A stretch of 11,617 bases of DNA from a bacterium (GTDB lineage Bacteria > UBP14 > UBA6098 > B30-G16). The notes beneath the pieces were generated by a model. That model saw nothing but the letters and a program-made list of their open reading frames with translations, was not told the origin of the DNA and searched no databases. Where the stretch lies: positions 1-11,617 of the forward strand of contig JALTEE010000058.1 in NCBI GenBank assembly GCA_027007865.1. Reading direction: 5' to 3'. Below, one piece after another: positions 148 to 11,615 of the stretch. The position numbers were made by a program, and so were the translations under genes. Position 1 is the stretch's first letter; each line of letters begins with the position of its first letter.

Positions 148-1482
148 ATGAATGTTATCTTAAATCGTCTCGATGCGGTAAGCATCGTTGTCAAAGGTGA
201 AATTTCTAATGAAGAGGTTTCAAGGAAACTTGATGAAATGGTTAGTAAAAATGCAGGTAAAATATCGATACCGGGTTTTCGCCCTGGTAAAGCGCCGAAA
301 AGTGTGATTATCGCAAGATATGGCGATGCTTTTAAAAACGATTTGACTATGGATTTCATCCGAGAAGTCGTCGAAGAAGCGATAAAACAAGAGCCTGCTC
401 TGGAAAAACCGCTGTTTATGGACGAGCCGAAATTCGAACCGATTTCCGACGGCAAGCCATTTAATGTCGAGATATATGTTGAATTGAAGCCGAAAATAGA
501 ACTGCAAAAATATAAAGATTTCGAGTTGAAACGCCCGCTAATACCCGTGCCAGATGAAGAAGTAGATGATATGATAGAAGAGTTTTTACTGCGAAATGCC
601 ACATTAGAGCCGCAGGAAAGACCCGTTCAAGAAAACGACTATGTGGAAGTAAAAGTTTCCGCAGGAAACGAGGAACCTGCTCCTATGCTTATCCCTCTCG
701 ATGACCCAGAATTCCTAAACCATTTTGGCGACTTAATCGGCAAGTCGATGGGTGATATGCTCGAAAAGGATATGGCTTTCCCCGATTCTTTTCCAGACCG
801 TAGATTGCAGGGTAGAAAAGGACATTTTGTTCTTGAAATTACCAATGTTTTCAAACAAATTAAGCCTGAATTAAACGCGGAATTTTTCAAGAAAATCGGC
901 AAGCAGGACGGATATTCAGCAGAAGATTTCAGAAAAGAAGTCGCAGATTACGCACGAGCACAGAAAGCGCAGACATCGAATGATATGGTGTTCGAAAGGC
1001 TCATCGATGCACTTATAGAAGCAAATCCCGTGCAGATACCGCCGAAATTTCAACAACAACAGGTCGATGAATACATCGAAGAAAATCTCAATGTTTCAAA
1101 AATTCCACAGGATGAGTTGCAAAATATTATGAATGAAGTGAACGAAAAAATTAGGCGGAGAATTTTATATCAGTTCATTGTCGATGCCATTGCAGATGCG
1201 GAGTCCATCGAGCCTTCCGAGCAAGATGTTCTCGATTCGATGCGCAATTGGGCTTATTCGATGAGATTAAATCCCGATGAGGTGCAGAAAACATTCACAG
1301 AAGACCCCCAGCGATATGAGGATTTTAAGAGCACAGTGCGACGGGAAAAAACAATCGAATTTTTATTATCAACCTGCAAAATATTGGATGAAATGGTGTC
1401 CGAAAAAAGCGATACAGCGACCCCCGAAAACACTGCAGAAAGCGAGGTAAATAACGATGAAAGCGAGTTACAAACTTCTTAG
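148..1482 (+). CDS. tig: trigger factor, ribosome-associated chaperone/PPIase
   Basis: Trigger factor docks at the ribosomal exit tunnel and shields nascent chains in the cytoplasm; its middle domain is an FKBP-type peptidyl-prolyl isomerase. The 444 residues have the usual length and order. The ribosome-binding N-domain (about 1-115) carries the signature GFRPGKAP at 43-50. An FKBP-like domain covers about 155-240, and the helical chaperone domain follows to about 415. The last 30 or so residues are an acidic, Ser/Thr/Asn-rich tail, as in many homologues. ATG 148 is preceded by a G5 run (137-141) six bases away, a weak but usable ribosome-binding site. No cysteine-rich or signal segment is seen. 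The 3' end overlaps pheT by 26 bases, so the two are probably cotranscribed and translationally coupled. The more usual tig neighbours clpP and clpX do not follow. Confidence 0.95.
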   Translation: MNVILNRLDAVSIVVKGEISNEEVSRKLDEMVSKNAGKISIPGFRPGKAPKSVIIARYGDAFKNDLTMDFIREVVEEAIKQEPALEKPLFMDEPKFEPISDGKPFNVEIYVELKPKIELQKYKDFELKRPLIPVPDEEVDDMIEEFLLRNATLEPQERPVQENDYVEVKVSAGNEEPAPMLIPLDDPEFLNHFGDLIGKSMGDMLEKDMAFPDSFPDRRLQGRKGHFVLEITNVFKQIKPELNAEFFKKIGKQDGYSAEDFRKEVADYARAQKAQTSNDMVFERLIDALIEANPVQIPPKFQQQQVDEYIEENLNVSKIPQDELQNIMNEVNEKIRRRILYQFIVDAIADAESIEPSEQDVLDSMRNWAYSMRLNPDEVQKTFTEDPQRYEDFKSTVRREKTIEFLLSTCKILDEMVSEKSDTATPENTAESEVNNDESELQTS

Positions 1483-3823
1483 TGAACTGCTCGATTTCCC
1501 ATATTCTCCCGAAGAACTTGCGGAAAAATTCACGCTAACAGGAACAGAAGTCGAAGCAATCGAACATCCTGGCGAGTGGATTTCTGATATCTTCATCGGC
1601 GAAATTATGGATGTCAAGGAAAACGCGCCCCATAGCGGACTTGCAAAATGTGTTGTTTTGTGCGGAGACAAAAAATATACCACAATCACAGGTGCACCGA
1701 ATGTTAAAGTCGGGACAAAAGCCGCTTTTGCTGTGCCTGGCGCAAAAATCTTTGGCGGACGAGAAATCGGTATTGCAGAAATAGATGGTGAAAAAAGCGA
1801 GGGAATGCTATGCTCCGGGGTGGAAATTGGTCTCGGCTTTCCGAAAGATAAATTGTTCCCAATTCCCGACGATGCGCAGAGCGGTGCGGATTTGAAAAAA
1901 TTGCTCGGCTGGAACGATGAAACAATCTACGAGATGGAAGTTACGCCGAACCGTCCCGATTGCTATGGACATTTCGGACTTGCTCGAGAAATCGCTGCGA
2001 TGCTCGGAAAATTATGGCAGCCGCGAATCCCGAAATTAGACGATGTAATCGATGACGACGGCGGAGTTTCGGTAAAAATTATCACGGACAAATGTCCGCA
2101 CTACGCAGGCAGACTTATCGAAGGTATAAAAATTGCGCCGTCGCCGTTGTGGCTCACCGGAAGACTCGCCGCTCTCGGAACGAGACCCATCAACAATATC
2201 GTCGATATCACAAACTATGCGATGCTGCTCACAGGACAACCGATTCACGCATTCGACGAAGCGAAACTCGGCAGAGAGATAATAGTAAGACAGGCGCAAA
2301 ATGGCGAAAAAATGTTCACTCTCGACGATGTAGAACGAAAATTTTCGGACGATATAATGCTCATTGCATCGCCGAAATCTCCTGTTGCCGTCGCTGGAAT
2401 TATGGGCGGGAAAAATTCCGAAGTAGATGAAAACACACGGAATATTATCGTTGAAGTCGCCTATTTCGACCCGATTACAGTTCGCAGAGGCAGTAAATTT
2501 CTCGGACTCACTACAGAATCGTCCACACGCTTCGAGAAAGGCACCGACCCGAATGCTCCGTCAAAAGTATCCGATATCGTTGCTGAAATGGCAAAAAAGT
2601 TCGCTGGCGCAAAAAAAATATATAGGACTGTCGATGAATACCCACAAGTTACCGAGCCGATGAAAGTTACGCTGACCGATGAAAAAGTAAAAAGAGTTAT
2701 CGGAGTGAAAATTCCGCGAGTGGATTGCCGAAAAATTCTCATCGGTCTCGGTTTCGACATTTTTTCGGAAAATGCGGGTGGAACGACTTATGAAGTTCCT
2801 ACATTTCGTCCCGATGTAATGCGAGAAATCGACCTCATCGAAGAAGTCGGCAGAATTTACGGACTGTGGAATATTCCAGCGCAGTTGCGTGCACAAGGGC
2901 CATTGCCACCTGAAATACCCGATAAAATCCGATTGAAGATATTTTTCGAGGATATTTTGCCGGGGCTCGGCTATCGTTATGCTATGACCGACCCGCTCGG
3001 CAAACGCGAGATACTCGGATTTTTTGCGGACAAACCACTGGTGAAATTATCCAATCCATTGTCGGAAGATTTTTCTGTGATGCGCCCAAATCCGCTGCCG
3101 TCGATTATCGCTGCTGCAGCGAGAAATCTTAATCGCGGGATGCGTTCCATACGGCTGTTCGAAGTCGACAACGGATATTCCGATGATGGCGAATATTCTG
3201 AAGAAATGTATCTAACAATCGTCGGCGGAGGTTTCAGAAATCCTGTCGGATGGGATTTTAGCGACGACCCGCTCGATTTGTTCGACATCAAAGGCACAAT
3301 CGAAGCACTGGCGGGAAATATTAGGACAAAATTTCAATTCGAGCAGGCAACTGCGGACTTCGCCGAAGATGGAACATTTCTAAAAATCTTCACGGATGGG
3401 AAAGAAATCGGCTTCATCGGAACACTCGCTAAAAAATTGTGGAATTACTACGAACTGCGTTCACCCGTGCATTTTGGGCTATTGCAAATTATGCCGCTGC
3501 TCCCGTTTTTCACGAAAACACCCGAATATAAAAAGTTCTCGCGTTTTCCTGCAATAAAGAGAGATGCGGCGCTTATCGTGGATGAGAATCTTTCTGCACA
3601 AAAATTGCTCGATGCAGCGAAAGATTTTGCCCCCGATGCAGAGAAAATCGGCTTGTTCGATATGTATCGTGGAAAACCGATTCCAGCGGGGAAAAAATCG
3701 CTGGGATTGTTTTTTATATTCCGCTCAGCAGAAAAAACACTCACCGATGAAGATGTGAACGAAATGTTTGAAAAAATCGTGCGAAAATTATGCAAAAAAT
3801 TCGATGCGGAGATAAGAAAATGA
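1457..3823 (+). CDS. pheT: phenylalanine--tRNA ligase beta subunit
   Basis: PheT pairs with PheS as an (alpha-beta)2 enzyme that charges tRNA-Phe; the beta chain binds tRNA and edits Tyr-tRNA-Phe. At 788 residues it has full bacterial length. Visible in order: EMAP/OB-type tRNA-binding domain (about 40-150); TPNRPDCYGHFGLAREIAA (163-181); the B3/B4 editing region with NIVDITNYAMLLTGQPIHAF (247-266) and TESSTRFEKGTDP (352-364 or so); the B5 domain (about 403-470) ending in PTFRPDVMREIDLIEEVGR; the catalytic-like core; and a C-terminal FDX-ACB anticodon-binding domain (about 695-788) with SRFPAIKRDAALIVDE. ATG 1457 has GAGG at 1444-1447 inside the tig end, about nine bases upstream. The gene starts inside tig with a 26-base overlap. 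The usual partner pheS is not adjacent and must lie elsewhere. Confidence 0.96.
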   Translation: MKASYKLLSELLDFPYSPEELAEKFTLTGTEVEAIEHPGEWISDIFIGEIMDVKENAPHSGLAKCVVLCGDKKYTTITGAPNVKVGTKAAFAVPGAKIFGGREIGIAEIDGEKSEGMLCSGVEIGLGFPKDKLFPIPDDAQSGADLKKLLGWNDETIYEMEVTPNRPDCYGHFGLAREIAAMLGKLWQPRIPKLDDVIDDDGGVSVKIITDKCPHYAGRLIEGIKIAPSPLWLTGRLAALGTRPINNIVDITNYAMLLTGQPIHAFDEAKLGREIIVRQAQNGEKMFTLDDVERKFSDDIMLIASPKSPVAVAGIMGGKNSEVDENTRNIIVEVAYFDPITVRRGSKFLGLTTESSTRFEKGTDPNAPSKVSDIVAEMAKKFAGAKKIYRTVDEYPQVTEPMKVTLTDEKVKRVIGVKIPRVDCRKILIGLGFDIFSENAGGTTYEVPTFRPDVMREIDLIEEVGRIYGLWNIPAQLRAQGPLPPEIPDKIRLKIFFEDILPGLGYRYAMTDPLGKREILGFFADKPLVKLSNPLSEDFSVMRPNPLPSIIAAAARNLNRGMRSIRLFEVDNGYSDDGEYSEEMYLTIVGGGFRNPVGWDFSDDPLDLFDIKGTIEALAGNIRTKFQFEQATADFAEDGTFLKIFTDGKEIGFIGTLAKKLWNYYELRSPVHFGLLQIMPLLPFFTKTPEYKKFSRFPAIKRDAALIVDENLSAQKLLDAAKDFAPDAEKIGLFDMYRGKPIPAGKKSLGLFFIFRSAEKTLTDEDVNEMFEKIVRKLCKKFDAEIRK

Positions 3824-3902
3824 TACATAATAGGGAATTACATACAGCAAAAAAGATTTCGCTAATTATTTTAATATTTCACTTAAATCGGCGAATGAAA
3901 GT

Positions 3903-3954
3903 ATGGTTAGCACCACTTAGAGATACAAATCGTGCAAAGGCAGACGATAACCAT
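3903..3954 (+). other. bulged hairpin followed by T-rich tract, between pheT and the methyltransferase
   Basis: ATGGTTA (3903-3909) pairs exactly with TAACCAT (3948-3954). Directly inside, GCAC (3910-3913) pairs with GTGC (3932-3935). This gives an 11-bp stem with a 12-base one-sided bulge and an 18-base loop. TTTTAATTTTTTAT follows at once. It could act as a weak intrinsic terminator for tig-pheT or as a leader structure of the next gene, but the outer stem has little GC, so chance pairing is quite possible. Confidence 0.3.
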
Positions 3955-4008
3955 TTTTAATTTTTTATATGTAGATTTTATTTTTTATTTAATCAACATT
4001 GCGATAAA

Positions 4009-4638
4009 ATGCCAAAAATAGAACCATTTGAGAAATATACCGAGCGCTATGAGGATTGGTTCGGACAGAATGAATTTGCATACCTGTCGGAACTTAAAGC
4101 GATTAGAGAAATCCTTCCAGACGGTGTCGGTGTTGAAATCGGCATCGGTAGCGGCCGTTTTGCTATACCGCTCGGGATAAAATTTGGCATCGACCCGTCG
4201 ATGAAAATGCTGGAAGTAGCATATCAGAATAAAAGCATCATTGCTGCCGCGGGAATTGCAGAAAAAATCCCGCTTCGAGATGATATATTCGACTTCGCTC
4301 TGATGGTCACAACTATTTGCTTCGTTGACGATATCGAAAAAACATTTTTGGAAACGCATCGCATCCTGAAAAAAAATGGCCGCATAATAATCGGCTTCGT
4401 GGATAGAGAAAGTGAAATCGGAAAGTTCTATCAGCAGCACAAAAATGAGAGCCTTTTCTATAAAATAGCACAATTTTTTTCGACGGACGAAGTTTTATCA
4501 CATTTGAAAAATGCGGGCTTCGGCGATTTCAAATTTGTTCAGACAATATTTCATCCATTGCCCGATGTGAAAAATGTAGAGTCCGTCATCGATGGCTACG
4601 GGAAAGGCTCGTTTGTCGTCATCAGTGCGAAAGGATAA
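4009..4638 (+). CDS. class I SAM-dependent methyltransferase (Methyltransf_11 type)
   Basis: This 209-residue soluble protein transfers a methyl group from S-adenosylmethionine; the acceptor cannot be told from the sequence. The Rossmann motif I is EIGIGSGRFA (43-52), the acidic end of strand 2 is the D in GIDPS (about 62), and the adenine-side loop is AEKIPLRDDIFD (84-95). It leads into the strand-4 segment LMVTTICFVDD (98-108). The LMVTTICFVDD block and the C-terminal GYGKGSFVVI (196-205) are, from memory, typical of a compact methyltransferase group common in anaerobes. ATG 4009 has no Shine-Dalgarno sequence in its A/T-rich upstream bases, so initiation may be leaderless or weak. A DUF1858 gene follows after 26 bases and is probably in the same transcript, suggesting a shared redox or metal-related job, which is inference. 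Confidence 0.85.
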   Translation: MPKIEPFEKYTERYEDWFGQNEFAYLSELKAIREILPDGVGVEIGIGSGRFAIPLGIKFGIDPSMKMLEVAYQNKSIIAAAGIAEKIPLRDDIFDFALMVTTICFVDDIEKTFLETHRILKKNGRIIIGFVDRESEIGKFYQQHKNESLFYKIAQFFSTDEVLSHLKNAGFGDFKFVQTIFHPLPDVKNVESVIDGYGKGSFVVISAKG

Positions 4639-4664
4639 AAGATATTAAAAAATGGAGATTAACT

Positions 4665-4901
4665 ATGATAGAAATCGACCCAAAAATCACAATCGAAGAC
4701 CTTGTCGAAAAGTATCCCGCCGCGGTAAAATTTTTATCGAAGCGCGGAATTGTCTGCATAGTTTGCGGCGAACCTGCTTGGGGGACACTCGAAGAAATGG
4801 CTCGTAAAAAAGGTGTCGAAGATGTTGAAAAACTCGCTGTCGAGTTGAGCGATTTTTTGAACGAAGCAGAGCAGAAAGGTGAACTTGAAAGAAGATTTTG
4901 A
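4665..4901 (+). CDS. DUF1858 / hybrid-cluster-protein-associated CxxC domain protein
   Basis: This 78-residue cytoplasmic protein is a single DUF1858 domain, also described as a hybrid-cluster-protein-associated redox disulfide domain. It starts with the typical IDPKITIEDLVEKYPAA (4-20), predicts as helical, and carries one cysteine pair, C31 and C34, in GIVCIVCGEPAWGTLEEMA. The family is presumed to do thiol/disulfide or Fe-S-related chemistry in anaerobes, but its biochemical role is not established. The start is well fixed: GGAGAT (4654-4659) lies five bases before ATG 4665. The remaining 40 residues after the CxxC are charged and helical. It sits directly behind the methyltransferase and 91 bases before ribF. 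No hybrid-cluster protein gene is present in the window. Confidence 0.85.
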   Translation: MIEIDPKITIEDLVEKYPAAVKFLSKRGIVCIVCGEPAWGTLEEMARKKGVEDVEKLAVELSDFLNEAEQKGELERRF

Positions 4902-4992
4902 TGGAAGGAAATACCATTAATATCGGGAAAAATTTTGCTGGTTGGTAATTCATAATTATTAGCAGATATTATTTGAGGTTTAAATTATCAAG

Positions 4993-5946
4993 ATGTTCGC
5001 ATCACCGCAAATACGGACAATTTGGCTTGATGAGCCGCAACGGATATTCGACAAGACCGCTGTAACAATCGGCAGTTTCGATGGAATTCATCGTGGGCAT
5101 AAAATTATTTTGGAACACCTCGCGAATGCCGCGGCAAAAAGAAATCTTTCACCGATACTTTTGACATTTGACCCGCACCCAAGGCTTGTGCTGTCGGGCG
5201 ACATATCAGTCCTGACGACAGTTGCAGAAAGAGAATTGCTGCTCCGAAAATCGGGATTATCCTGTATTGTCCACATAAGATTTACGCAGAAAATCGCAAA
5301 TCTATCGCACAGTGAATTTGTGGCGCAGTATCTTGTGCAATCGCTTGGAGCGAAATATGTCATCGTTGGTTATGACCACCATTTTGGCAAAAGCAGAGAA
5401 GGTAGTCCGCAAGCGTTGGAAAAACTCGGCGCAAAATACGATTTCGATGTAGAAATCATCCCGCCGATAAAAGTCGAGCGCAATACGATAAAAAGCAGTG
5501 TTGTGCGAAAGCTCCTCGTAGATGGCAAATTGGACAAAGCAAATTCACTTCTGGGACATAGTTATATCGTAATGGGCAAAGCGGTTCCTGGCAGAGGTCT
5601 TGGCCACCACATCGGGTATCCGACGGCAAACCTCGAACTGCCTGCGCAAAAATTGCTTCCTCCCGATGGCGTATATGGGGCGACCGCCGTTGTTCTGCCA
5701 AATAAAATCGAAAGCGCAGCGATGGTATATATAGGTCATGCACCGACATTCGACCTGCCGAAAAAGATGTTCGAAGTGCATATTTTCGACCACGACGGAA
5801 GCGCATTGTATGGGCGAAACATTGTTGTTCGACTGCACAAATTCATTCGTTCAGACCGCTCGTTCAAAACCGTGGACGAACTGCGAAGACAAATCGACAG
5901 CGATGCAATCGAGACAAAAGAAGCGCTGAAAAATGTTTTTGAGTAA
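4993..5946 (+). CDS. ribF: bifunctional riboflavin kinase / FAD synthetase
   Basis: RibF phosphorylates riboflavin to FMN and then adenylylates FMN to FAD in the cytoplasm. The 317 residues match the usual length. The N-terminal nucleotidyltransferase domain (about 18-185) shows GSFDGIHRGHK (27-37, with the HxGH-type motif), FDPHPR (59-64), GYDHHFGKSREG (126-137) and the SSVVRKLL block (168-175) that corresponds to the family's ISSTxIR. The C-terminal flavokinase domain shows GRGLGHHIGYPTANL (200-214), the conserved PTAN, then GHAPTF and EVHIFDHDG, whose E261 is at the usual catalytic glutamate position. The start is not fully settled: GAGG (4975-4978) is 14 bases from ATG 4993, which is long. 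The in-frame ATC 4987 and ATT 4984 would be better spaced, and an in-frame TAA at 4981 limits any extension to three residues. Confidence 0.94.
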   Translation: MFASPQIRTIWLDEPQRIFDKTAVTIGSFDGIHRGHKIILEHLANAAAKRNLSPILLTFDPHPRLVLSGDISVLTTVAERELLLRKSGLSCIVHIRFTQKIANLSHSEFVAQYLVQSLGAKYVIVGYDHHFGKSREGSPQALEKLGAKYDFDVEIIPPIKVERNTIKSSVVRKLLVDGKLDKANSLLGHSYIVMGKAVPGRGLGHHIGYPTANLELPAQKLLPPDGVYGATAVVLPNKIESAAMVYIGHAPTFDLPKKMFEVHIFDHDGSALYGRNIVVRLHKFIRSDRSFKTVDELRRQIDSDAIETKEALKNVFE

Positions 5947-6555: not shown

Positions 6556-6701
6556 TCATTATGAATATTATGAACTCTGCAAAAATGTAATTGTCCGATT
6601 TTCCCGCCACGGCGAGGCAGCAGCATCGTTTTTTCCCCCCGTCGAGCGAGGGAATGACAGTGAGTGTTTTTCCTTGTTTTGCAGGAGTCATTATGAATAT
6701 T
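6556..6701. repeat. 14-bp direct repeats enclosing an inverted-repeat (MITE-like) segment
   Basis: TCATTATGAATATT occurs exactly at 6556-6569 and again at 6688-6701. Just inside, ACTCTGCAAAA (6574-6584) faces TTTTGCAGGAGT (6677-6688), an inverted pair with one extra base on the right. The enclosed DNA holds a degenerate palindrome of the same kind as the ribF-side repeats, with TTCCC near 6634 and GGGAATGACAG at 6650-6660. The right-hand direct repeat covers the last codons and stop of the minus-strand gene. The layout resembles a small non-autonomous element with a target duplication, although 14 bases is longer than most target duplications. The inverted arms could also form a 3' hairpin on the operon transcript. 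Confidence 0.45.
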
Positions 6702-8463
6702 TTCTTGTTGCTTCAAGCACCATAGTTAATATCTGGTTTTTGAAGAAATTGCTATGCTGTACGGCGCCAGATGGGCAAGCAGCAGCACAAGCTCCGCAGC
6801 CTTCGCAAAGTGCTTCATTCACAACAGCAATATGTTTAACGGGGTCGACAGCGATTGCCTCGTATGCGCACGCCTTTTCGCAGTATCCGCAACCTGCGCA
6901 AATTTCCTGGTCAACATGAGCGATGGTCGGTGAACGAACTAATTCTGGCTGACTAAACATATCCAAAACTTTGGCTGCCGCACCGGATGCCTGAGCGACA
7001 GTATCTGTGATATCCTTTGGATACTGAGCGACTCCCGAGATGAAAATTCCAGCGGTCATAGATTCGAGCGGACGGAGTTTTAAATGCTGCTCCTTTATCC
7101 AGCCATATTCGTCGGTTGCAAGGCGTAGAGTCTTCAAAAGTTTCAGCCCCGATTCGCTTGGAATCATAGCAGGAGCGAGAACAACCATATCCACATCGAG
7201 TTTTACCTGTCTGCCTGATAGCGTATCTGTCGACCAGATTTGAACTTTGTCGCCATTTTGTATAATTCGCGCGGGTTTGCCGCGAATAAATGTCACCCAT
7301 TCTTCTTCTTGCGCACGCTGATAAAATTCTTCGTAGCCTTTTCCATTTGTTCGCAGGTCGATGTAGAAGTCGTATGCGCGTCCATCTTCGACGGCATGCT
7401 TATAAAGCATCGCTTGTTTAATGAGATACATACAGCAAATTCTCGAACAATATGGAACACCGTGTTCGGGGTCTCGTGAACGAACGCAGTGAACAAATGC
7501 GATAGATTTGGGAATTTTCCCGTCGGAAGGTCTTTTGACAATGCCATTTGTCGGTCCTGCTGGTGCAAGCAAACGCTCCATCGTAAGCGCATCTATTACA
7601 TCGGGAATTTCTCCGCCGCCATATTCGGGAATCTTTTTAAGCGGATAAAGTTCGAATCCCGTAGAAACGATTATCGCTCCAACATCTAATTCTTCGATTT
7701 TATCGACCTGTTTGTAATCTATCGCATCGGTTGGACAAACAGCGGAACATACTCCGCAGGCATCGTTTTTGAAGTGCATACAGCTCGTATCATCGAGAAC
7801 AGGAGTATTCGGCACGGCTTGCGGGAAAGGAATGTAGATGGCGGGTCTATCGACTAATCCTTGGTCGAACTCTGACGGTATGGGATGAATAGGTCGGTCT
7901 GTCCAATCGGAGACTTTGATGGCATTTGTTGGACATACGAATTGACATGCTCCGCAGGTGGAACATATATCAGAATATTCTTTCATAGGTGTAGCAATAC
8001 GGCGGTGTTCTCCTCTGCCGACAAAACCGATAGCACTTATATTCATAATTTCATCGCAGGTGCGAACGCATAATCCACACATTATACATTTCTTATTCCA
8101 GTTGCTCTCGCGACTTTTATATTCCGTATCGAATACATCGTATTTTGCAGCGAGTTCACGGATATCTTCTGCTTCGGGAGCGGCGGCAAGCATAAGTTTG
8201 AGTATAAATTTTCTGGCGCGTTTGACAACAGGTGAATTTGTGCGAATTTCGCCTTCCCATGCAGGATAGGTGCACGCTGTTTTGAGTGTAGAACGTCCCT
8301 TCCAAATTGTCTCTACAACGCACAATCTGCAAGTGCCAGATGGTGAAAGCGCTTTGTGGTGGCAAAGAGTGGGAATCTCTATTCCCAATTCGTTCGCAAC
8401 CTCGAGCACAGTTTTATTAGGGTCAGGCTCGACCTCTATTCCGTCTATTATTAGTTTTGCCAT
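6691..8463 (-). CDS. HydA/NuoG-type Fe-S N-domain fused to C-terminal half of HdrA
   Basis: This 590-residue cytoplasmic electron carrier has two parts. Residues 1-75 form a [2Fe-2S] ferredoxin domain (C34, C45, C48, C64) as in NuoG, HoxU and HydA. Residues 126-136 and 167-177 are two [4Fe-4S] motifs (CIMCGLCVRTC and CSTCGACQFVC). The His-Cys cluster normally between them and the [2Fe-2S] domain is absent: residues 88-125 have no His or Cys. No hydrogenase domain follows. From about 196 the chain is HdrA: RPAIYIPFPQAVP (206-218), an inserted-ferredoxin motif (C228, C236, C239, C243), VGAIIVSTGFELYP, the four-cysteine set C326-X12-C339-X3-CC (343-344) with K349 five residues on, the RGKP segment, and the FAD-closing GIFISGVAQYPKDITDTVAQ (472-491). 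Two more [4Fe-4S] motifs end it (522-532, 553-563). HdrA's GxGxxG half is missing here and lies in the first gene of the operon. AGAGGAG (8470-8476) sits six bases before ATG 8463; the gap to the preceding gene is 22 bases. Confidence 0.9.
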   Translation of the reverse strand: MAKLIIDGIEVEPDPNKTVLEVANELGIEIPTLCHHKALSPSGTCRLCVVETIWKGRSTLKTACTYPAWEGEIRTNSPVVKRARKFILKLMLAAAPEAEDIRELAAKYDVFDTEYKSRESNWNKKCIMCGLCVRTCDEIMNISAIGFVGRGEHRRIATPMKEYSDICSTCGACQFVCPTNAIKVSDWTDRPIHPIPSEFDQGLVDRPAIYIPFPQAVPNTPVLDDTSCMHFKNDACGVCSAVCPTDAIDYKQVDKIEELDVGAIIVSTGFELYPLKKIPEYGGGEIPDVIDALTMERLLAPAGPTNGIVKRPSDGKIPKSIAFVHCVRSRDPEHGVPYCSRICCMYLIKQAMLYKHAVEDGRAYDFYIDLRTNGKGYEEFYQRAQEEEWVTFIRGKPARIIQNGDKVQIWSTDTLSGRQVKLDVDMVVLAPAMIPSESGLKLLKTLRLATDEYGWIKEQHLKLRPLESMTAGIFISGVAQYPKDITDTVAQASGAAAKVLDMFSQPELVRSPTIAHVDQEICAGCGYCEKACAYEAIAVDPVKHIAVVNEALCEGCGACAAACPSGAVQHSNFFKNQILTMVLEATRKYS

Positions 8464-8485
8464 CGAAAACTCCTCTTTACTTACA

Positions 8486-10330
8486 TTATATTCGTTTTAC
8501 CGCATCAAAATTACAAACATCGTAACACATACCGCATTTCACGCATTTTTCCGTGTCGATAACATGAGCCTCTTTTGCTTTGCCTGTAATTGCTCCTACT
8601 GGACACTTTTTTGCGCAAAGTGTGCATCCGGTACATTTTTCAGCATCTATCGTATATGTTACCAATGCTTTGCATACACCAGCAGGACATCGTTTCTCTT
8701 CGATATGTGCTATATATTCATCTCGGAAATATTTTAATGTCGACAACATCGGGTTCGGTGCTGCTTTACCGAGTTGGCAGAGCGATGTCTGCGAAATGCC
8801 CCAGGCGAGTTCTTCGAGCATATCGAGATGCTCCATTTTGCCCCTGCCTTCGCAAATATCGTTGAGTATTTCGCGCATCTGAACCAATCCTTCGCGGCAA
8901 GGAGTGCACTGCCCACAGGATTCATCCACTAAAAAACTGATGAAATATTTGGCGATGTCAACCATACAGTTATCTTCATCGAAAACAATCATTCCACCAG
9001 AACCCATCATAGACCCCGCATCGCTGAGACTGTCAAAATCGACTTGCAGGTCGAGAAGGCTTTCTGGCAACACTCCACCGGATGGACCGCCAGTTTGAAC
9101 ACCTTTGAATTTTTTCCCATTTCTGATTCCACCACCGATATCATACACAATTTCACGCAGTGTTATTCCCATAGGAACTTCGACAAGTCCCGTATTGTTA
9201 ACTTTTCCAACAAGTGAGAAAATTTTTGTTCCTTTGCTACGCTCCGTTCCTATGGACGCATACCATTTGGAACCGTTATTTATAATAAGCGGAACATTTG
9301 CCCAAGTCTCGACATTGTTCAGAACCGTCGGTCTATCCCACAGCCCTTTTTGAGTTGCGTGAACATGCTTCGGTCTTGGAACAGCGGCTTTCCCCTCAAT
9401 GGAACGCATCAGAGCGGATGATTCTCCCGCGACAAATGCGCCGCCACCACGATTTATCTTAATGTCGAAATCGAAACCTGAACCGAGAATATTTTTTCCT
9501 AACAAGCCATATTTTCTGGCTTTTTCCATGGCGATACCGAAATTTTCACAGGCGAGCGGATATTCCTGTCGAACATAGATGTATCCTTCATTTGCACCGA
9601 TAGCATAAGCACCGATAATCATTCCTTCCAATATCGAATGGGGATTGCCTTCCAATAACGCTCTGTCCATATATGCGCCAGGGTCGCCTTCATCGGCATT
9701 GCAGATAACATATTTGATATCTCCTTCCGCTTGCCGAGCAGATTTCCATTTAATGCCCGTAGGGAAACCGCCACCGCCCCTGCCGCGCAACCCCGATTTT
9801 AATACTTCGTCGATTATAGCATCCCTGTCCATTGATAAAGCTTTTGCAAGTGCTGTATATCCACCAATGGCTATATAATCATCTATGGAAGTTGGGGTGA
9901 GATTGACATTATTCCCGAAAATAAATGGTTGTTGTTTTTCATAGAACGGAATATCATCGTGGGTCATGCATTTTTTGTTTGTTATTGGGTCGGTATATAA
10001 CAACTCTTCGACAATCTTGTGCTTTTCTATCGTCTCATTGATGATTTTTGGCACATCTTTATGAGAAACCGAGGTATAAAATATTTTTTCGGGTTCGATG
10101 ATTACGATTGGTTCCCGTTCGCAAAATCCCAGACATCCTGTCGGTCTCAAATGCACTTTATCGTTAAGTTTTCTATCCTCTAATTCTTTGCGGAATGCGG
10201 AAACGACGCTTTTAGAGCCACGCGCTTCGCCACAGGTTCCTCCTGAAACGATAATAAGTCGTTCTTGTTTGGCTCTTTTTTGCGCGAACTTCTCCGCGAG
10301 TTTATTCAGGTCTTCTGCGGACTTAATCAT
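8486..10330 (-). CDS. NuoF/HydB-type NADH-binding FMN subunit with extra Fe-S domains
   Basis: This subunit exchanges hydride with NAD(H) at FMN and passes single electrons to Fe-S clusters. In the 614-residue product, residues 1-115 are a thioredoxin-like ferredoxin domain. The NuoF core carries [10 protein letters not shown] (181-190), [13 protein letters not shown] (211-223) and GGGAFVAGE (295-303) for FMN and NADH, then an SLBB-like part. The N3-type [4Fe-4S] ligands follow: C472, C475, C478 and C518. Next come CPAGVC (548-553) and two ferredoxin motifs, [11 protein letters not shown] (566-576) and [11 protein letters not shown] (596-606). This order is that of HydB/HndC of bifurcating [FeFe]-hydrogenases, longer than complex I NuoF. 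The N-terminal domain keeps only three of the usual four ligands (C33, C66, C70). I place the start at ATG 10330, since AGGAGG lies six bases before it; an in-frame GTG at 10336 touches that sequence. It overlaps the upstream gene by eight bases. Confidence 0.93.
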
Positions 10331-11615
10331 TTTCACCCTCCTCTTTCTCGAACTTATTAAAAAGTTTCACTACATCGGGTGGGTCGGCATGATAATATGT
10401 TTCATCGATTGTAACGACAGGGCCCAACGCACAAACACCCAAACAATTGACTGTTTCGAGGCTGTATCGCATATCGGGTGTTGTTTCACCACTCTTGATT
10501 TTTAGCCGACGCTCGACTTCGTCTAACACTCGCGGCCCGCCTCTCGTATGGCAAGCCGTGCCCATACAAACTTTTACAATATGTTTGCCTCGTGGTTCGA
10601 GGCTAAATGCAGTGTAAAATGAAGCAACTTCATAGACTTTCGATAATGGCACATTTAATTTCTCACTGACATATTTCAACGCATCCTCAGGAAGATAATT
10701 GAATATTGCATTGACATCAAGCAGCACCTGAACCAGAGCAGATTTATCGCCGATATGCGGAGACACTATCGGTTCGATTTTTTCGATGAATTCGGGCGCA
10801 ATCTGCTGACTATACTTTGGCGGAGCGATTATTTGTGGCTGATTATGCACAGGACAACTTACATAGCATTCGCCGCAGCCGGTGCATTTCTCCGCATCGA
10901 CATAACTGGCTTTGCGGCGAACTTTAACCTTGAAATTGCCTATATAGCCGCCAACTTCTTCAACCTCCGAGTATGCCAATAGATTTATATTCGGATGATT
11001 TGCTACATCGGTCATCTTCGGCGTAGCGATACATTGCGGACAGTCGAGAGTCGGGAATGTCTCGGACAATTGAAGCATCTTTCCGCCAATGGATGGGCTT
11101 TTCTCAATTAAATATACTTCGTATCCTGCATCGGCGATATCAAGCGCAGATTGCATCCCTGAAATTCCGCCACCGATAACCATTGCTCTGCGTGTAACGG
11201 GGATTTTTATATCATCCAATACGGTGTCCCGCTTGACCTTTTCTACCGTTTGGCGAATTACGAGGAATGCCTTTTTTGTCGCCAATTTTTTTTCGTGCCA
11301 GTGTGGCCACGATACCTGCTCGCGTATATTTGCCACTTCGAGACGATACGGATTTAAACCTGCTTTTGCAGCGACATTACGGAAAGTCTTTTCGTGTAGC
11401 GTCGGTGAGCAGTGCGCATTGACAACGGCGTCAAGATTGTATTTTTTTATGCTATCCGCCACAAGTTGTTGTCCCGGGGCAGAGCAAAGAAATTTGTAAT
11501 CTGTGGCAAAAACAACATCGGGAAGTTTCGCGACTTGTTTTACAAGCGAAGATACATCGACTGCGCCCGCAATGTTGTTGCCACAATGACAGATAAAAAC
11601 TCCTATCCGTGCCAT
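10323..11615 (-). CDS. N-terminal half of HdrA fused to NuoE/HydC-type [2Fe-2S] domain
   Basis: The 430-residue product starts like Hdr[13 protein letters not shown] (4-15, C9 and C11), FLCSAPGQ (C44) and [14 protein letters not shown] (66-79, C69), then ANIREQVSW. The FAD-binding Rossmann motif is [19 protein letters not shown] (146-164), followed by [20 protein letters not shown] (C192, C195) and GGYIGNF. One inserted-ferredoxin motif, [11 protein letters not shown] (244-254), is the last HdrA element. Where HdrA would go on, the chain switches at about 270-285 to a thioredoxin-like NuoE domain: helical [28 protein letters not shown], and [2Fe-2S] ligands C350, C355, C391 and C395 (CX4C and CX3C). 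NuoE/HydC relays electrons next to NuoF/HydB, which is the next gene. ATG 11615 is two bases from the window end, so its ribosome-binding site and any earlier operon genes are unseen. The length to the first HdrA motif is normal, so the start is probably right. Confidence 0.92.
10337..10342 (-). promoter_or_regulatory. Shine-Dalgarno that sets the NuoF/HydB-type start
   Basis: The minus strand reads GAGGAGGGTGAAAATG here. The perfect AGGAGG is directly followed by GTG 10336 with no spacer, while ATG 10330 is six bases away. The ATG is therefore the likely initiator, making the product two residues shorter than the longest reading. The site lies inside the end of the upstream gene, whose TAA is at 10323-10325, so translation of the two is likely coupled. 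Confidence 0.75.

Follow-up and report, generated by a model that had tools for sequence, protein, structure and literature searches.

The window analysed here is the complete contig C58 (JALTEE010000058.1), 11,617 bp in length, of a bacterial genome comprising 530 contigs and 74.5% complete (GCA_027007865.1). Three genes on the minus strand occupy positions 6691–11615 and encode, in this order, the proteins P1 (HdrA_N-NuoE), P2 (NuoF) and P3 (NuoG_N-HdrA_C). In this order, the three parts of a nicotinamide adenine dinucleotide (NADH) cassette are flanked by the two halves of HdrA, heterodisulfide reductase subunit A, which is a central electron-bifurcating flavoprotein of anaerobes. In profile searches, residues 3–259 of P1 match positions 1–258 of the HdrA2 profile (E 5.8e-107), and residues 195–587 of P3 match positions 257–642 (E 1.2e-123). 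The break in HdrA thus falls between cysteine motifs 1 and 2 of the inserted ferredoxin, and the core is complete; profile positions after 642, up to 777, are unmatched by either protein. An ordinary HdrA is one polypeptide of about 650 residues, while here it consists of two chains, each fused to another domain.

These matches, which far exceed chance, bear out the first-pass annotation, which had read P1 as HdrA up to the first inserted-ferredoxin motif (residues 244–254) followed by NuoE/HydC, P3 as a HydA/NuoG-type region (residues 3–190 in our searches) followed by the rest of HdrA, and the product of the gene between them as a HydB/NuoF-type subunit. The NuoF-type region of P2 (residues 147–545) scores 482.6 bits, below the NuoF model cut-off of 558.65, as for a HydB-type relative, and PF01512 is above its cut-off. 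The N-terminus of the subunit is thioredoxin-like and of [2Fe-2S] type, and its C-terminus is 2x[4Fe-4S]. The genes of P1 and P2 overlap by 14 nucleotides counted from the GTG start, or by 8 from the ATG at 10330, and those of P2 and P3 are separated by 22 nucleotides containing a GAGGAG motif, a spacing as in one operon. P1 begins 2 bases from the contig end, and upstream genes lie beyond the contig.

The residues expected of an HdrA are distributed over both chains and are conserved among 64 aligned rows (Table 1). The inserted ferredoxin has one cysteine motif on each chain. The N-terminal cluster domain is represented by C11, C44, C69 and C195 in 64 of 64 rows and by C9 in 63; C195 aligns with Cys197 of the structure 5odc_A. 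The fused NuoE/HydC domain keeps C350, C355, C391 and C395 in all 64. The flavin adenine dinucleotide (FAD) domain is present but divided: its dinucleotide-binding glycines are on P1, and E296 and K349 are on P3. The counterparts of the latter two, E356 and K409, have been proposed as tuning residues of the bifurcating FAD that distinguish bifurcating HdrA (PMC12054007; papers are cited here and below for the excerpts available).

Structural coverage of 5odc_A by the two proteins is complementary, residues 3–239 being covered by P1 and 257–636 by P3 (VIA-align and Foldseek, single chains). The halves also vary together. Pairwise distances were compared for a set of 36 split loci, comprising the window, 8 further loci each read directly from a single contig, and 27 database protein pairs matched solely by source contigs of equal size. 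Two near-copy pairs of L032 and L034, the repeat rows L033 and L044, and L031, which is cut by a contig end, were left out. The distances of HdrA_N and HdrA_C correlate with r=0.80, compared with 0.74 for the N- and C-terminal halves of 78 uninterrupted HdrA (two long-branch rows dropped), so that the split HdrA varies as a single protein would, although its halves are on different chains. These halves show little coupling to their fused domains (HdrA_N with NuoE 0.41, HdrA_C with NuoG_N 0.19); the two cassette parts NuoE and NuoG_N give 0.55. Trimming the ferredoxin ends changes little (0.80, 0.38, 0.18 and 0.55, respectively).

The placement of these residues, the complementary coverage and the co-variation support the proposal of the first-pass annotation that an HdrA FAD site tied to NAD(H) is assembled from two chains. 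We consider it probable that the inserted ferredoxin of HdrA was opened to receive an exchangeable Bfu-type NAD(H) module, so that the FAD site forms in trans.

Table 1. Features of the split HdrA operon in the window (residue numbers refer to P1 or P3; fractions are aligned rows).
Feature	Position	Strand	Evidence or residues
P1, HdrA N-half + NuoE/HydC (BfuC-like), 430 aa	10323..11615	-	profile matches
HdrA residues 1–257: N-terminal cluster domain, start of FAD (thioredoxin-reductase-like) domain, first inserted-ferredoxin half	10845..11615	-	
GxGxxG dinucleotide motif, P1	11157..11174	-	G148, G150, G153 in 64/64
Cys motif 1 of split inserted ferredoxin, P1 244–254	10854..10886	-	C244, C247, C250, C254 in 64/64
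NuoE/HydC (NuoE/HoxE-type) [2Fe-2S] domain, P1 residues about 272–425	10341..10802	-	
P2, HydB/NuoF-type (BfuB-like) FMN/NADH subunit, 616 aa	8486..10336	-	
P3, NuoG/HydA N-terminal (BfuA-like) domain + HdrA C-half, 590 aa	6691..8463	-	
NuoG/HydA-N (BfuA-like) part of P3	7894..8463	-	C34, C45, C48, C64 + two CxxCxxCxxxC motifs (126–136, 167–177)
HdrA residues about 257–642: second inserted-ferredoxin half, remaining FAD domain, C-terminal ferredoxin	6703..7881	-	
Cys motif 2 of split inserted ferredoxin, P3	7735..7782	-	C228, C236, C239, C243 in 63/64; P0239 gapped
E296 of P3	7576..7578	-	aligns with E356 of M. thermolithotrophicus HdrA (FAD N5 environment), 64/64
K349 of P3	7417..7419	-	aligns with K409 of M. 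thermolithotrophicus HdrA, 64/64
C-terminal 2x[4Fe-4S] ferredoxin domain of HdrA, P3	6760..6924	-	C522, C525, C528, C532, C553, C556, C559, C563 invariant

The NADH module and the operon neighbours

The Bfu family has been described with five ligands of cluster B2, namely Cys, Cys/Thr, His, Cys and Cys (PMC9304861). Residues C457, C495, H544, C550 and C555 of P2 align without gaps with C438, C476, H525, C531 and C536 of 7t2r_B. This ligand set (the second residue being Cys or Thr), together with the cysteines of B1, B3 and B4, is kept in all 11 split NuoF sequences compared. The BfuC [2Fe-2S] part and the BfuA cluster set were found as the fused domains of P1 and P3, the N-terminus of P3 containing one [2Fe-2S]-type and two [4Fe-4S]-type motifs, which corresponds to the A1/A2/A4 content of Type 2 BfuA. 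Among solved structures, P2 is closest to 9mqx, an electron-bifurcating tungsten aldehyde oxidoreductase, and the nearest sequence match of the NuoG/HydA-N part of P3 is 9mqx_A. By sequence, we call the cassette Bfu-like because of the B2 ligands, the B1/B3/B4 cysteines, the BfuA motif content and this nearest structure; its strict membership of the Bfu family would hinge on cluster B5 and on function.

Flanking genes are readable for 10 long-split operons (L030, L032, L034, L035, L036, L037, L038, L045, L172 and L173), whereas contig ends truncate those of the window, L031 and L033. Of these 10 operons, 7 have HdrBC or HdrD-like genes at a distance of up to about 6 kb. HdrB and HdrC are found within about 4 kb of L032 and adjoin L034, L035, L036 and L173; L038 and L172 have an HdrD-like CCG protein and EtfBA within about 6 kb. 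Near L032, L035 and L036 there are also TfrA-like, Fe-S (TfrB-like) and fumarase genes; the scores for TfrA and TfrB are below the curated cut-offs. The flank of L037 has MeaB, and L045 has MvhD downstream. Elsewhere in the window genome, TfrB-like and TfrA-like genes occur on a 3.5-kb contig (L189).

Different forms of HdrA occupy equivalent places in such operons. The slot HdrC-HdrB-TfrB-TfrA contains an uninterrupted HdrA, placed between HdrB and TfrB, in genome G150 (L192) and a split HdrA in L032, L035 and L036. The slot HdrD-like-EtfB-EtfA contains a HdrA with a GltD insert in the window genome (L196) and a split HdrA in L038 and L172. Gene names in these slots rest on single-sequence profiles, with the electron transfer flavoprotein (ETF), acyl-CoA dehydrogenase, CCG, FlpD and fumarase assignments confirmed by Pfam/NCBIfam in examples. 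The L196 protein (L196:138-6407 on contig C371 of the window genome, G000) has 1110 residues and a GltD-like insert at the same site, and is a bacterial counterpart of the type III HdrA described below.

Recurrence of the split form and exchange of the cassette

A search for the same architecture in other genomes, which the first-pass annotation had called for, reveals that the split recurs. About 8000 homologues each of P1 and P3 were scored and the best 120 of each listed. Among the matches listed, all 120 homologues of P1 have the HdrA_N+NuoE fusion; of the 120 for P3, 113 have the NuoG_N+HdrA_C fusion and 7 contain both HdrA halves in one chain. Their source names are both bacterial and archaeal, including KSB1, Cloacimonadota, NC10, Methanomassiliicoccales and Thermoplasmata, and the HdrA_N+NuoE fusion was found on contigs of up to 5.2 Mb. 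Among 386 genomes searched, mostly from other families of the same domain, at least 9 have the long split form (G000, G004, G007, G008, G011, G015, G017, G150 and G299); this count is a lower bound because 4 candidates were scored per genome. A short split form, without the HdrA N-domain, is found at L049:10314-16273, L080:9992-16110, L174:1899-8946, L175:1-9359 and L176:7400-11907.

Further variants were noted among these loci. NuoG_N-HdrA_C is fused to a second HdrA-like part in L049, L080 and L174 (1060–1090 aa). A separate 127-aa gene, by eye like the N-terminal [2Fe-2S] part of NuoF, precedes the NuoF gene in L174–L176. P0237, a P3 homologue of 742 aa, has FlpD/MvhD (PF02662) among its Pfam domains. 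Two small open reading frames (110 and 100 aa), which resemble a toxin-antitoxin-like pair, lie between NuoF and NuoG_N-HdrA_C at L173:8229-9070.

To place the split form among its relatives, a tree of 124 HdrA cores was compared with one of the cassette (NuoE+NuoG_N), all run as quick trees. The core tree comprises 80 uninterrupted, 38 split and 6 insert-bearing (gap >200 residues) sequences. The insert rows L046, L104 and L112 are classed by the gap alone, and L028, L040 and L196 (identical to the L041 gene) have GltD-like inserts (Fer4_20 plus Pyr_redox_2). Uninterrupted, GltD-inserted and split HdrA are interleaved in this tree. The split label changes 14 times, with at least 10 changes forced by starred branches; the corresponding numbers with 74 rows are 14 and 9. 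A single clade of all split cores is rejected (p-AU, from the approximately unbiased test, 3.7e-6), and the same test within the window's own family is marginal (p-AU 0.048). Nearest to the window core are the split P0002/P0124 and an uninterrupted HdrA from the same genus (G001), which is 82% and 83% identical over the two halves; the order within this triple is not settled by the tree. By eye, no gene neighbourhood common to split and uninterrupted HdrA was seen in the window's family. At L045:8037-11266, on a Spirochaetales contig, an uninterrupted HdrA lies directly before a split operon, and the two cores are sister branches that share 74% and 66% identity across their halves.

The cassette and core trees disagree (p-AU 2.4e-4 and 6e-88). 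NuoE sequences from 35 of 36 long splits and from both short splits tested group apart from 22 rows of free NuoE, two of which are one gene fetched twice. Three genomes, G008, G011 and G015, have two long copies of the split operon. The two copies in G011 are 95% identical in NuoE and 90% in NuoG_N, compared with 67% in HdrA_N and 53% in HdrA_C. Their nucleotide identity rises from 0.67 to 0.95 at residue 241 of P1 and stays at 0.88–0.95 to the end of NuoE; on P3 it is 0.70–0.92 through residue 240, drops from 0.92 to 0.73 at 241–260 and is 0.35–0.67 beyond. The breaks thus fall inside both ferredoxin halves. At the level of sequence, the cassette has been exchanged between HdrA lineages, which suggests that the NADH unit is a plug-in moved between HdrA enzymes at one fixed site. 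Exact refusion upon cassette loss may account for some of the uninterrupted HdrA.

Proposed mechanism and alternative explanations

If P1 and P3 join, one FAD would be held by the GxGxxG motif of P1 and by the closing segment, E296 and K349 of P3. In 2[4Fe-4S] ferredoxins, the fourth ligand of each cluster comes from the other motif; for this reason, both [4Fe-4S] clusters of the inserted ferredoxin would be shared by the two chains, each being completed by cysteines from P1 and P3. Electrons normally leave for soluble ferredoxin through the inserted ferredoxin; here it would become an internal wire between the flavin mononucleotide (FMN) centre of BfuBC and the FAD of HdrA. Most likely, NADH (and ferredoxin) would react at the BfuBC core, with electrons moving through the BfuA clusters and the two-chain ferredoxin to or from the FAD. 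At the high-potential end, HdrBC or an HdrD-like protein would be the partner, working with a TfrA-like fumarate reductase or an EtfAB/acyl-CoA dehydrogenase system. The net reaction that we propose would reversibly link NADH and ferredoxin to an acceptor or donor of high potential, and the complex may thus perform bifurcation or confurcation. A broader scheme, to which we give slightly less than even weight, is that HdrA acts as a docking frame at whose inserted ferredoxin NAD(P)H modules of unrelated fold (GltD/NfnB or the NuoEFG of Bfu) are swapped by recombination. The Bfu plug would create a trans-assembled flavoenzyme in which the FAD and both [4Fe-4S] clusters are shared by two chains, and the FMN-FeS and FAD bifurcating centres would operate in series within one soluble complex.

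Several observations weigh against assembly in trans, or against the function proposed for it. The match of P3 to 5odc_A has a root-mean-square deviation of 9.1. In the monomer models, the block means of the predicted local distance difference test (pLDDT) are 54–65 at residues 171–200 and 52–59 at 241–260 of P1, and 42–66 at 451–510 of P3; low model confidence where the halves should meet fits an absent partner and falls short of proof. Joint inheritance of neighbouring genes may explain part of the correlation between the halves. The first cysteine pair of cluster B5 in 7t2r_B is kept in 8 of the 11 split NuoF, but not in the window, L045 or L173. In the window P2, the pair aligns with S31 and G36, C35 lies between these two, and C68 and C72 are kept. 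No redox partner is found next to the G004 operon (L030), whose flanks are readable, and the window itself, with P1 beginning at the contig end, shows no partner. In the second split copies of G011 (L037:10579-13700) and G015 (L033:942-4023), the two fused genes are not separated by a NuoF gene, and the NuoF of the first copy may serve both. That the three proteins form one obligate complex, as the first-pass annotation inferred, remains hypothetical.

A possible reading, to which we assign a lower though appreciable probability, retains the trans architecture with a non-bifurcating HdrA FAD, either as a plain relay from NADH to HdrBC/HdrD or with the Bfu FMN-FeS core as the sole bifurcating centre. 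Since all five B2 ligands of a bifurcating BfuB, and its B1, B3 and B4 cysteines, are found in P2, one bifurcating centre could suffice. Moreover, the inserted-ferredoxin exit is occupied, and repurposing of the clusters has been proposed for single-chain GltD insertions (PMC12054007). However, E296 and K349 are invariant in the aligned rows, and the conserved cysteines of the C-terminal ferredoxin offer another ferredoxin route.

The interleaving of split and uninterrupted HdrA might instead reflect many independent fissions or refusions rather than one moving cassette, which we regard as unlikely. The 9 to 10 label changes that the core tree requires at minimum speak for fissions, and a sharp exchanged block is seen in only one of the three genomes with two copies. 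Outside G011, the contrast is weaker in G015 (NuoE 74%, NuoG_N 64%, HdrA_N 57%, HdrA_C 44%) and absent in G008 (52%, 61%, 60% and 52%, respectively). The single origin of the cassette is moderately supported (75 to 91), and the NuoE of L045 is unplaced. Nevertheless, the grouping of split-form NuoE as one family, the strong conflict between cassette and core trees, and the sharp block in the G011 copies favour a moving cassette.

It is improbable that the HdrA halves do not reassemble and that each serves as a stand-alone domain, for example by docking to a separate intact HdrA. P1 and P3 are encoded by separate genes and the window genome has other HdrA-type proteins (contigs C371 and C497), which speaks for this explanation. 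On the other hand, the FAD and cluster ligands are divided in a manner seemingly useless to either half alone and are invariant in both, and the halves co-vary as those of one protein. No uninterrupted HdrA of about 650 residues is present among the window-genome matches listed (4 of 6) in this 74.5% complete genome.

An assembly error, chimera or decayed gene can be dismissed for the family, despite the short window contig and the uninterrupted HdrA of G001 among the sequences closest to the window core, since the fusion recurs in every listed P1 homologue, on long contigs and under bacterial and archaeal names, with frames intact and ligands invariant. The first-pass annotation had anticipated that close homologues with both halves in one gene would indicate rearrangement or misassembly. 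The G001 protein is such a homologue, but many independent contigs carry the split, which is mixed with the uninterrupted form in the tree, so G001 does not point to misassembly.

Relation to known systems and other features of the window

The closest described parallel is the type III HdrA (HdrA9-11) of ANME-1 archaea (anaerobic methanotrophs), in which an NAD(P)H module, a GltD/NfnB insertion, likewise lies inside the inserted ferredoxin of HdrA and E356/K409 are kept (PMC9012536; PMC12054007). In the window, the insertion is also between cysteine motifs 1 and 2. However, type III HdrA is a single chain with a GltD/NfnB module, whereas here the module is of Bfu type (NuoE/NuoF/NuoG_N in three genes) and HdrA forms two chains around the NuoF gene. 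Type 2 Bfu, as in Wor-Bfu (PDB 9mqx; PMC9304861), resembles the cassette in its BfuC-, BfuB- and BfuA-type parts, its B2 ligands and its BfuA motif count. BfuABC are separate proteins in that system, whereas in the window the BfuC and BfuA parts are fused to HdrA halves and the B5 region differs. The Bam-Bfu complex of class II benzoyl-CoA reductase also combines BfuABC-type and HdrA-type modules, with two bifurcating modules proposed in series; this likeness is by description, not by sequence, and the description available includes no HdrA split or Bfu fusion (PMC9304861). FlxABCD-HdrABC and HdrABC-MvhADG share the HdrA core, HdrBC partners and NADH or H2 input, but their HdrA is one chain (PMC9012536; PMC6315080). 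The flx-hdr genes are interspersed with tfrAB, and Flx-Hdr with TfrAB has been proposed for tubeworm symbionts (PMC6315080).

HdrA-HdrA and HdrA-MvhD fusions are treated in a survey of archaeal fusions, which in the part available notes no NuoEFG split (PMC11237513). The available portions of PMC6037941, PMC7325909, PMC5736913, PMC10327494, PMC9723716, PMC6305446, PMC8671834, PMC8421398 and PMC9723677 describe no such split either. The three-gene HdrA/NuoEFG split was thus not found in the open literature searched, with subscription literature outside that scope, and its absence from print is not established. Names such as "NADH:ubiquinone oxidoreductase subunit E", "heterodisulfide reductase subunit A" and "4Fe-4S binding protein" hide the split, and the complex is therefore easily missed.

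If correct, a widespread natural HdrA in which two polypeptides complete both the FAD site and the inserted ferredoxin would be an uncommon design for a flavoenzyme. It would also give a clean handle on the entry of electrons from NAD(H) into HdrA or their exit from it. Because uninterrupted, GltD-inserted and NuoEFG-split HdrA occur in equivalent operons, the way in which bifurcating complexes evolve by modules can be tested directly.

Among other HdrA genes encountered, those at L069:10001-11980, L075:2010-3977 and L122:9989-11977 have frames broken at about residue 193, near conserved cysteines, possibly by an in-frame stop read as selenocysteine. The rest of the window is unrelated to the HdrA split. 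Plus-strand genes at 148–5946 appear by eye to be trigger-factor-like, PheT (supported by searches), methyltransferase-like and RibF-like. Between the RibF-like gene and the end of P3 (6000–6690) there is no convincing gene, and a short stretch rich in GC within this interval is possibly a repeat.

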